A DNA stretch of 37,417 nucleotides from Planctomycetota bacterium (GTDB lineage: Bacteria > Planctomycetota > Phycisphaerae > UBA1845 > Fen-1342): assembly GCA_022574815.1 (NCBI GenBank), contig JACZRH010000006.1, forward strand, positions 1-37,417. Reading direction: 5' to 3'. Of the stretch, positions 6,581-10,829 are shown one piece after another. The notes beneath the pieces are model-generated. The model did not search any database. It was not told where the DNA came from and saw nothing but the letters and a program-made list of their open reading frames with translations. The translations under genes and the position numbers were made by a program. Every line of letters begins with the position of its first letter. The first letter of the stretch is position 1.

Positions 6581-8536
6581 ATGCGAGGACCGTCAAAGGG
6601 AAGTTCCTCCGACGGCCCGCCGCCGAAGTCGTCCAAACAGCGCTATCGCGCGTTTCGACATCCGAAACGTCGGGACGACGCGAGGCATCACGGCCGAACG
6701 TCGAACGTTCGCGAACCGGCGCCGCGCGCCGCGCGGCGAAACTATCTCCGCGCCTACATCCATTGGCTGCGGCCGTATACCTGGAGCATCGTCGCGGTCT
6801 TCGCACTGGCGCTGACCGCCGCCGCCATGAGCCTCGTCCTGCCGTGGGCCACGATGTACATCATCGACGAGGTCCTGCCGAACAAGGACAGAGCGACGCT
6901 GACAATGCTCGGCGCCGGCTTGCTGGTCCTCATCGTCGTCCAGCAGCTCATCGACTTCGTGCGGCATTGGCGGCTCGCCAAGCTCGGCGCCCGCGTCGTC
7001 TTCCGCATGAGGCAGCGCCTGTTCGGCCACCTGCTCAAGCTGCCGCTGCACAAACTCTCGGAGATGAAGACCGGCGGGATCACGTCGCGGCTCTCCGGCG
7101 ACCTCGACAACGCCACCGGCCTGCTCAACGTCGGTCTGGTCATGCCCGGCGTCGCCGCCGCCAAGGTGCTCCTGACCATCGGCGTGTTGTTCTGGATCAA
7201 CTGGCAGATGTCGGTCGCCGCGATCATCCTGCTCCCGCCCATCGTCGCACTGAACCTGCTGACCATCCGCCGCGTGCGGCCGATCTATCGCAGCATGCGC
7301 GGCGACCGGGCCGAGATCGACGGGCGAGTGGTCGAGACGTTCGGCGGGATTCGCGACGTGCGGGCCTTCGGGCGCGAAAAGACCGAAGCGCGGCGCTATG
7401 CCGTCGCGCACCACACCGTCATTCGCAAACAGCTCCTGGCGAACTGGTTCGAGCAGCTCGTGCGGTCCGGGTGGGGGCTGTTCGTGCCTTTGTGCGGGCT
7501 GTTCGTGATCTGGTTCGGCGGGACGCTCCACCTGGCCAACGCCGAGAGCACGACGATCGGCGGGATCGTCGCGTTCCAAATGTATCTGATGATGCTGCTC
7601 ATGCCGGTCTCGATGATCGTGCAATCGTACGGCCAGACGCAGCAAGCTCTGGCGGCGATGGAGCGCGTGTTCGACCTGCTCGAGATCCCCGCCGACAAAC
7701 CCGACCGCCCGGACGCGGTCGCCGTTCCCTTGCGAGTGGGCGCGCCGCGCGCCGGCGCGGCGAGCCGAAACGGCATCGAATCCTTCGAGTTCGACGACGT
7801 CGGCTTCTCATACAGCCCCGGCCAGCCGGTGCTCACTTCGTTTTCGCTGCGCGTCGCGGGCGGCACGTCCGTCGCGCTGGTCGGGCCGAGCGGGGCCGGC
7901 AAGACGACCGTGACCAACCTCGTCGCCCGCTTTCACGATCCGACCCACGGAGCGATCCGCCTCAACGGCGTCGACCTGCGCGACATCAAGCTGGCCGGCT
8001 ATCGCGGGCTGCTGGGACTGGTGCAGCAGGAGACCTTCCTCTTCGACGGCACGATCGGCGAGAACATTGCCTACGGCCGGATCGGCGCCACCGCCGCCGA
8101 AATCGAGCACGCCGCCCGCCGCGCCAACGCACACGAATTCATCCAGGGCTTTCCCGACGCGTACGATACGTTGGTCGGGGAGCGCGGGGTGCGGCTCTCG
8201 GGCGGGCAGGCGCAGCGCATCAGCATCGCCCGCGCGATTCTGGCCGACCCGCAGATCCTGATTCTCGACGAAGCGACGAGCAATCTTGATTCGGAGAGCG
8301 AGCAGCTCATTCAGGCCTCGATGCGCGAGCTCCTCGCCGACCGGACCACCTTCGTCATCGCCCACCGCCTTTCGACGGTCATGAACGCCGACCTGATCGT
8401 GGTCCTGGAGGACGGCCGAATCACCGAATCCGGCACGCACGCGAAGCTGATGGAATCCGACGGACGCTACCGCGCAATGGTCGAGCGGCAACAACGCGGC
8501 CTAACCGAGCCGGCCGCGGCCGACTGGCTCGCGTAG
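6581..8536 (+). CDS. MsbA-like ABC exporter (fused membrane and ATPase domains)
   Basis: Half-size type IV ABC exporter that would work as a homodimer in the inner membrane. The 651 residues comprise a basic Arg/Ser/Pro-rich cytoplasmic tail (about 1-52), six membrane helices (about 60-370) and a nucleotide-binding domain. That domain shows Walker A GPSGAGKTT near 437, Q-loop VQQETFLFDG, signature LSGGQAQR near 540, Walker B ILILDEATS near 560 and H-loop AHRLST near 593; all look functional. The ATG is three bases after the ybeY stop, implying translational coupling. Related exporters move lipids, lipid A precursors, peptides or drugs. The substrate cannot be read from the sequence, but lipid or glycolipid export is plausible beside envelope genes. 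Confidence 0.93.
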   Translation: MRGPSKGSSSDGPPPKSSKQRYRAFRHPKRRDDARHHGRTSNVREPAPRAARRNYLRAYIHWLRPYTWSIVAVFALALTAAAMSLVLPWATMYIIDEVLPNKDRATLTMLGAGLLVLIVVQQLIDFVRHWRLAKLGARVVFRMRQRLFGHLLKLPLHKLSEMKTGGITSRLSGDLDNATGLLNVGLVMPGVAAAKVLLTIGVLFWINWQMSVAAIILLPPIVALNLLTIRRVRPIYRSMRGDRAEIDGRVVETFGGIRDVRAFGREKTEARRYAVAHHTVIRKQLLANWFEQLVRSGWGLFVPLCGLFVIWFGGTLHLANAESTTIGGIVAFQMYLMMLLMPVSMIVQSYGQTQQALAAMERVFDLLEIPADKPDRPDAVAVPLRVGAPRAGAASRNGIESFEFDDVGFSYSPGQPVLTSFSLRVAGGTSVALVGPSGAGKTTVTNLVARFHDPTHGAIRLNGVDLRDIKLAGYRGLLGLVQQETFLFDGTIGENIAYGRIGATAAEIEHAARRANAHEFIQGFPDAYDTLVGERGVRLSGGQAQRISIARAILADPQILILDEATSNLDSESEQLIQASMRELLADRTTFVIAHRLSTVMNADLIVVLEDGRITESGTHAKLMESDGRYRAMVERQQRGLTEPAAADWLA

Positions 8537-8951
8537 CTGGACACTGGTCGACCAGGCGTGTGCGGCGTGCGTTTAACGACCACAATGGAGCCCGAGGATC
8601 TCAGGGTTTGGCGAGTAAACCCAAACCGACCATTCACATGGAGAGCCGACCATCTTCGCGGGCAACGCGTAGGCTGAATGCCCCTCGTAGTCAGAACGGC
8701 TCGCCCGCTCTTCGCACGATTCGGTGTGGCGGACACTAAGGTTGAAAGTGGATCCGGCAGGAATTCTGCTGCGATGAAGGCAGAAATGAACGGGGCCGCC
8801 CCCCGTGGGACGGCCGCATGGACCCCCGACGCCATGGCAAGCCGCCCATCCGAATTGTGACCTGCGCTCACAACGACTCGCGCCGCCGTTGGCCGTCCGG
8901 TGCGGCGGCGTCCGGCACGGTGGTGTGGCTTGGCGCGCGCGGTCTTGCACG
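8537..8951. other. Gene-poor stretch between the ABC exporter and the ECF/TPR scar
   Basis: No convincing gene, hairpin terminator or RNA gene is seen in these 415 bases. Short open frames occur on both strands without recognisable sequence or ribosome-binding sites. Because it adjoins a deletion scar, it may be decayed former coding DNA. Confidence 0.5.
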
Positions 8952-9453
8952 ATGCCGACGTGCGCCGATAATGACCGTACCCCTGTGTCGCGGGCGCCCA
9001 ATCGCACATGTGAGAGCCCTTCGTTGCCGCAAAACGTGCAACAAACCGCCACCCAACTGCTCGCCGCGATGGGCGGCGGCGACGCGCAGGCTGCTGAACA
9101 GATCTTTCCCCTGATTCACCAGGAACTCCGGACCATCGCTGATCGCTACATGCGCCCTGGCCATGGCGCAGGGTGAGTTGGGCCGATGTCTGACCAAGCT
9201 GACACGCTTCGAGGTCGCCGAGCCGATGCTGTTGAAAAGCTATGAATTCGGCCAAGCCAACTTCGGCGATTCCCACGTTCGGGCCCTGGAGCGGTGTCAA
9301 TACCTGGCCGAACTCTACGACGCCTGGAGCAAGCCGGAACAAGCCGCCGAGTGGCGGGCGACCTCCGTCCAACCGATGAAGGGTGGTGCGGATTCAGTGA
9401 CGCCGTCCGCACCCGAAGAACCGGCGACTCGCCGAGCGAGAGACCCACGATGA
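8952..9453 (+). pseudogene. Fused remnant: ECF sigma factor N-terminus joined to a TPR kinase C-terminus
   Basis: Two fragments meet out of frame. From about 9024 to 9160 one frame reads TATQLLAAMGGGDAQAAEQ, then IFPLIHQELRTIADRYMR, the region 2 start of planctomycete ECF sigma factors, and stops soon after. From about 9148 to 9453 another frame reads ALAMAQGELGRCLTKLTRFE and ends with LAELYDAWSKPEQAAEWRA, the usual last TPR of large planctomycete Ser/Thr kinases. ECF sigma and TPR-kinase genes are normally adjacent, so one deletion of the rest of the sigma gene, the kinase domain and most TPRs explains the junction near 9148-9160. The TPR frame ends in TGA overlapping the argH ATG (ATGA at 9450-9453). 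The 5' boundary is approximate. Confidence 0.7.
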
Positions 9454-10829
9454 AAAACAAGAAAAAACGCCTGTGGGAAAAAGGCACCGAGCCCGATGAA
9501 TTGATCCACCGCTTCACCGTCGGTGACGACCCCGAATGGGACCGCCACCTCGTCCACTGGGACTGCCTCGGCTCCGCCGCCCACGCCCGCACGCTCGAGC
9601 GGGCCGGCATTCTCACCGCCGACGAGCGCGGCCGCCTGCTGGCCGGGCTCGCGCAGGTCGATGCCTTGGACCGCGCCGGCGAGTTCGCCATTCCGCCCGA
9701 GCTTGAAGACTGCCACACCGCGATCGAGTCGTTTCTCACCCGCGCGTGCGGCGACGCCGGAGCGAAGATCCACACCGGCCGCTCGCGCAACGACCAGGTT
9801 GTCTGCGCGATGCGCCTGTTCATGCGCCATCACGCCCTCGCGTGGCTCGACGAGCTCGCGCGGTTCGTCCGCGCGCTCCTGGATCGAATGCAGCGCGACG
9901 GCGAAGTCCCCATGCCCGGCTACACACACATGCAGCCCGCGATGCCGTCCAGCGTCGGTCAATGGCTGCACGCCTGGGTCGAAGCCGCGCTCGAACAAAC
10001 GCGGGCCGCGTTCGACCTGCTCGACCGCCTCGACGCCTGCCCGCTCGGCACCGGGGCCGGCTTCGGCGTCCCGCTGCCGCTCGACCGCGAGTACACCGCC
10101 GAACTGCTCGGCTTCGCGCGCGTGCAGCGCAGCCCGATCGACGTGCAGAACAGCCGCGGCCGCACCGAAATCTACTTCGTCCGCGTCGGCGTGGACGTCG
10201 GGGCGCTGCTCGAAAAGCTCAGTTGGGACCTGATCCTCTTCGCCGGCCCGCAGTACGGCTTCTTCGGCCTGCCCGAGGAAATGACGACCGGCTCGTCGAT
10301 CATGCCGCAGAAGAAGAACCCCGACGTGCTCGAGTTGATGCGGGCTCGGGCCGGACGGCTGCGGGCTCGGCTGCACGAGCTCGAATGGGTCGCCGGCAAG
10401 CTGCCGTCGAGCTATCACCGCGACCTGCAACTGACCAAGGAGCCGGCCATCCGCACGGCCCTGGAAGTATCGGAGATGCTCCAGGTCGCGACGCGCGTCG
10501 TGTCCGGGTTCACCGTCAATCGCGAGACCCTCGCGGCCGCGATGCAGCCGGAGCTGTACGCGACCCATGCCGCCGTCGCGCTGACCGAGCAAGGGGTTCC
10601 CTTTCGCGAGGCGTATCGGCGTGTGGCCGACGATTTGCGTGCGGGTCGCTTTCGCGAAGGCAGCGCGACCGCTGCCGATAAGCACACCGGTCGCGTCGCG
10701 GCGGATGTGATCGACGACATACGCTCCGAAGTGGAGCGGTGGTCCGAGCGTGCCCGAGTGATCGGCGCGCGGCACGCGGCGGTTGACACGATCCTCGAAT
10801 CAAGGCCACGCGAAGCGGGGAATGCCTGA
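9450..10829 (+). CDS. argH: Argininosuccinate lyase
   Basis: Last enzyme of arginine biosynthesis, cleaving argininosuccinate to arginine and fumarate; a cytoplasmic homotetramer of the fumarase/aspartase superfamily. The 459-residue length is normal. Conserved blocks are HTGRSRNDQV near residue 107, GYTHMQPAMP near 156 (catalytic His) and the signature loop GSSIMPQKKNPD near 279 (catalytic Ser). The N-terminus reads KRLWEKGTEPDELIHRFTVG instead of the usual LWGGRF, a variant like that of Bacteroidetes-type ArgH. The ATG at 9450 gives the family length; the frame is open farther upstream, but only across the TPR remnant. The 3' end overlaps the convergent GT-C gene by 30 bases. Confidence 0.95.
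   Translation: MKNKKKRLWEKGTEPDELIHRFTVGDDPEWDRHLVHWDCLGSAAHARTLERAGILTADERGRLLAGLAQVDALDRAGEFAIPPELEDCHTAIESFLTRACGDAGAKIHTGRSRNDQVVCAMRLFMRHHALAWLDELARFVRALLDRMQRDGEVPMPGYTHMQPAMPSSVGQWLHAWVEAALEQTRAAFDLLDRLDACPLGTGAGFGVPLPLDREYTAELLGFARVQRSPIDVQNSRGRTEIYFVRVGVDVGALLEKLSWDLILFAGPQYGFFGLPEEMTTGSSIMPQKKNPDVLELMRARAGRLRARLHELEWVAGKLPSSYHRDLQLTKEPAIRTALEVSEMLQVATRVVSGFTVNRETLAAAMQPELYATHAAVALTEQGVPFREAYRRVADDLRAGRFREGSATAADKHTGRVAADVIDDIRSEVERWSERARVIGARHAAVDTILESRPREAGNA

Follow-up and report, generated by a model that had tools for sequence, protein, structure and literature searches.

Activation of ECF sigma factors by a neighboring Ser/Thr kinase is described in two reviews (PMC8103513, PMC8999054). 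One of them lists ECF43, 59, 61, 62, 217 and 283 as phosphorylation-regulated (PMC8999054). In EcfP, the studied case, the phosphorylated threonine belongs to an STTA motif, which region 2.2 contains in place of the acidic DAED motif (PMC8103513, PMC8999054). Here, we analyzed a locus in the window, i.e., the whole 37,417-nt stretch of contig C61 from a draft planctomycete genome (379 contigs, 84.2% complete, 3.6% contamination). Compared with ECF sigma factor and Ser/Thr kinase pairs, the locus shows the same gene order and the same orientation of its two stumps; however, only the two ends of the pair are left, and neither protein is whole. With high confidence, we regard one deletion inside a sigma–kinase pair as the best explanation for the locus.

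We examined intact sigma–kinase pairs for gene order, spacing and motif. The genome contains 18 matches to PF07638, six of them with E<1e-20. One of these six strong sigma factors (C374) was left out because it ends approximately 170 bases before the contig end, and a same-strand PF00069 kinase follows all five evaluable ones (C297, C309, C354, C363 and C375). In the opposite direction, 26 loci retrieved by the kinase tail were inspected, and 23 were evaluable after leaving out L118 and L120, which run off their contigs, and L124, which has no kinase. A sigma factor lies directly upstream of the kinase in 13 of the 23, including weak sigma matches in L062 and L125 and a partial match in L119; the other 10 have none. 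An earlier note on this DNA had described the two genes as normally neighboring, and these counts support it. All 12 loci picked for hits by both halves in the right order on one contig carried an intact pair. The interval missing here spans 1,937–4,306 bp (median 2,942) in 24 intact pairs, which include the 12 chosen for hits by both halves.

Immediately ahead of L[VI][HN]E, 24 of 26 intact sigma factors, for example at L058:13410-14048 and L146:2999-3685, had QPTA (20), QATA (2), EPTA (1) or QTTG (1), and the remaining two showed GTAS before LVHQ. By our own alignment, we take the position of this QPTA-type motif to be the place of DAED in other ECF sigma factors. In the sigma factors paired with a kinase, the motif is uncharged, contains a threonine (QPTA in most) and resembles the STTA of phosphorylated EcfP. 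The remnant itself is without a QPTA-type motif because the motif lies just past the junction.

The N-terminal stump of the ECF sigma factor (9024-9155, plus strand, approximately 44 codons) was detected with PF07638, TIGR02999 and a profile of intact sigma factors. The residues encoded by 9027-9173 matched Pfam PF07638 (Sigma70_ECF) at positions 2-39 of 185, with an E-value of 9.6e-6 and 26.1 bits against a cut-off of 21.1. The match to TIGR02999 covered positions 3-39 of 183 (E 9.1e-7) and was under the whole-protein cut-off. The whole-genome scan with PF07638 also recovered the stump (E 3.4e-4), with the match ending at 9155. TTG at 9024 and GTG at 9036 are the candidate start codons, and the frame runs past the end of the match to a TGA stop at 9174-9176. 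Complete sigma-2 and sigma-4 domains were not found in the stump, in which PF07638 positions 2-39 of 185 alone are present; without them, the remnant presumably cannot act as a sigma factor. No second copy of the fragment occurs in the genome, the next best match being 41% identical. Among the sigma-fragment matches listed across the order, the frames had at least 177 residues, except for G106:C420 and G042:C80, which lie near contig starts, and the present locus.

The C-terminal stump of a TPR Ser/Thr kinase follows at 9154-9450 on the plus strand, in a frame that is one over from the sigma frame. Its ORF runs from ATG at 9163 to TGA at 9451-9453 and contains the last TPR and a conserved C-terminus to approximately 9369, followed by approximately 27 unconserved residues. 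The translation of 9163-9450 matched TPR_12 below the cut-off (E 1.9e-5), and the tail scored 97.7 bits with a profile of 27 homologue tails from which the present locus was left out. The same genome holds tail paralogues in eight further places (E down to 4.3e-15), and 87 of the 114 genomes of the order showed tail matches at E<=0.001. In the proteins of five of these paralogues, TPR repeats share a frame with a Ser/Thr kinase domain. Likewise, a kinase domain was in frame with the tail in 24 of the 26 inspected loci, the exceptions being L118 (contig end) and L124 (a remnant). These matches to kinase C-termini confirmed the proposal of the earlier note that the continuation in the other frame is the last TPR of a large Ser/Thr kinase; the search of both halves against ECF sigma factor and TPR kinase families, which it had suggested, returned matches for both.

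Pfam gave no Pkinase match in the tail, and none of the 34 PF00069 matches of the genome lies on contig C61. Thus, the remnant has no catalytic domain and presumably cannot act as a kinase. The tail fragment, too, has no second copy in the genome (next best match, 49% identical), and a wider contig scan with the tail found one distant kinase, also 49% identical, in a Phycisphaerales bin. The two best tail relatives outside the genome (L112:3175-5717 and L113:1270-3668) are unusually short kinases of approximately 560-590 residues, and their partner is a divergent type of sigma factor.

The two stumps meet with a change of frame at 9151-9157. We located this junction with profiles of 14 intact sigma factors and of the 27 homologue tails, the present locus being excluded. 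The sigma match ended at 9155 and the tail match started at 9154; the latter position changed to 9151 or 9157 with the model settings, and in one setting, in which stops were read as X, the sigma match extended to 9164. The breaking point of the sigma N-terminus, previously placed near 9148-9160, was thereby verified. All sequence at the transition is thus accounted for by one half or the other, and the matches barely overlap. Since the sigma and tail matches abut without spare sequence, one deletion suffices, as the earlier note had supposed. Upstream of the junction, the kinase frame has a stop codon at 9112-9114, and the residues between this stop and 9151 showed no match to the kinase profile. 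No repeats were found at the junction, but a deletion would remove one copy of a short repeat.

Deletion has also left TPR kinase pseudogenes, as tails lacking a kinase domain, in other genomes of the order. Within the stretches examined, this was the case at L132:5652-5813, L134:2576-2782 and L145:11062-11277; at L137:4045-6622, the sigma factor is whole, but the kinase match is without its first half and a different frame encodes the tail. The present locus resembles the first three, and L137 in part, in having the C-terminus without a catalytic domain in the examined stretch. However, none of the four joins a sigma N-terminus to a tail.

We then assessed wear on the fragments. Scored over the same columns with a leave-one-out profile, the tail reached 96.4 bits and ranked 14 of 28 (range 57.6-112.5), and the sigma fragment ranked 5 of 15. 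Both fragments score mid-range among intact homologues, which suggests a young scar. At third codon positions, the tail has a GC content of 0.71, equal to the lowest value of seven paralogue tails (0.71-0.81) and not informative on decay. Besides the missing middle, no damage is visible, suggesting that the event is young or that the comparison is too weak for older wear. The stretch between the end of the ABC transporter gene (8536) and the sigma stump (8537-9023, 487 bases) is gene-free, as had been noted for the bases preceding the scar: its seven ORF translations had no Pfam match better than E 0.12, and GC was nearly equal across the codon positions of 8537-9026 (0.66/0.63/0.64). Beyond being gene-free, this region gave no support for the local decay also suggested for it, and the fragments score as intact homologues do. 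The promoter of the lost sigma–kinase genes was presumably located in this stretch; a scan of 8500-9500 for sigma-70-type promoters found none.

An intact argH (argininosuccinate lyase; 9450-10829, plus strand) follows the tail. It matched TIGR00838 with 305 bits, over the cut-off, and its start is placed as in relatives; as read from the sequence, its ATG (9450) and the tail stop overlap in an ATGA. The genus consists of this genome alone. An argH match is present in all 27 family genomes, the weaker matches probably being other lyases, and we read the surroundings of the 15 best-matching ones outside this genome (L043-L057). None of the 15 loci has a sigma–kinase pair near argH, and sigma factor, kinase and YbeY genes are all absent there; a distant ABC transporter match occurs in L046 alone, over 11 kb away from argH. 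In 13 of the 15 loci, argH is directly preceded by a gene for an M20 peptidase match, possibly an arginine-pathway deacetylase (five proteins were checked with Pfam), and in several of them this gene overlaps argH in the ATGA manner. In the present genome, the M20 gene does not adjoin argH. Elsewhere in it, the best M20 matches reach 30% identity, or 41% within a 90-residue stretch close to a contig edge, compared with 57-71% identity among the M20 proteins of relatives; either the gene was lost or it is in the part that the draft does not cover. With no close copy of the M20 gene in the draft, next to argH or elsewhere, argH has changed neighbors in this lineage. Its neighborhood is unlike that of all 15 relatives, implying a rearrangement at some time, earlier or later than the deletion. 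A plasmid search gave no match.

We propose that the ancestral locus consisted of an ECF sigma factor gene, then a same-strand TPR Ser/Thr kinase gene and then argH. A single deletion of approximately 2-4 kb, most likely near 3 kb, would have taken the sigma gene from codon ~45 onward together with the kinase gene as far as the last TPR, and would have joined the stumps one frame apart at approximately 9151-9157. The remnant would be dead, and argH is probably still transcribed through it. The following observations count against the single-deletion reading: 10 of the 23 evaluable kinase loci have no upstream sigma factor; no relative has the same locus intact, in a genus of one genome and among 15 argH loci of the family; and the fragments show no further wear, though a dead remnant would gather wear in time. 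Two separate deletions, or one deletion as part of a longer rearrangement, would leave the same picture as a single one.

Alternatively, the assembly may have misjoined reads from one intact pair or from two distinct pairs, and the cell would then have no deletion. The draft state of the genome, with the contig number, completeness and contamination given above, speaks for such an error, as do the undamaged look of both fragments and the richness of the genome in sigma factors (18 matches) and kinases (34 matches). However, the junction 16-mer occurs once even with up to one mismatch allowed, the whole window contains no N, and no start-less sigma fragment begins at a contig edge. Moreover, the overlap of the two profile matches amounts to only a few bases, which makes it unlikely that they have a long word in common at the junction. 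We therefore consider an assembly error unlikely.

The deletion could also have given argH a new control region, consisting of the old sigma–kinase promoter and the short, overlapping translated leader frames 9024-9176 and 9163-9453, which lead via the ATGA at 9450 into argH, in place of the M20 gene found in 13 of 15 relatives. We consider this very unlikely. Still less probable is a kept relay of short frames, in which the stumps are translated serially (9024-9176, then from ATG 9163, then through the ATGA at 9450) as a leader carrying ribosomes into argH. The sigma-frame stop does overlap the start region of the tail ORF (ATG 9163) and the tail stop overlaps the argH start; both stumps are stop-free and score like intact homologues, and in 13 of 15 relatives another gene lies close upstream of argH, in several with overlap. 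However, the same short frames were found in no relative among the matches listed, and the overlaps can be leftovers of the intact kinase gene. Finally, an ECF42-like sigma factor with a C-terminal TPR extension, broken by a frameshift, can practically be dismissed: such sigma factors exist according to a review (PMC8103513), but the tail corresponds to the last repeat of Ser/Thr kinases, and a frameshift alone is insufficient because more than three quarters of the sigma factor are missing. The locus has no complete sigma factor with TPR repeats following in frame; the sigma match stops at 9155, and the other frame encodes the tail.

On the single-deletion reading, the locus is an ordinary gene remnant. 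The main consequence is for annotation, in which its short ORFs are to be labeled remnants rather than a small sigma factor or a TPR protein. The locus also adds one example to show that the numerous sigma–kinase pairs of the order undergo loss by deletion in addition to gain.
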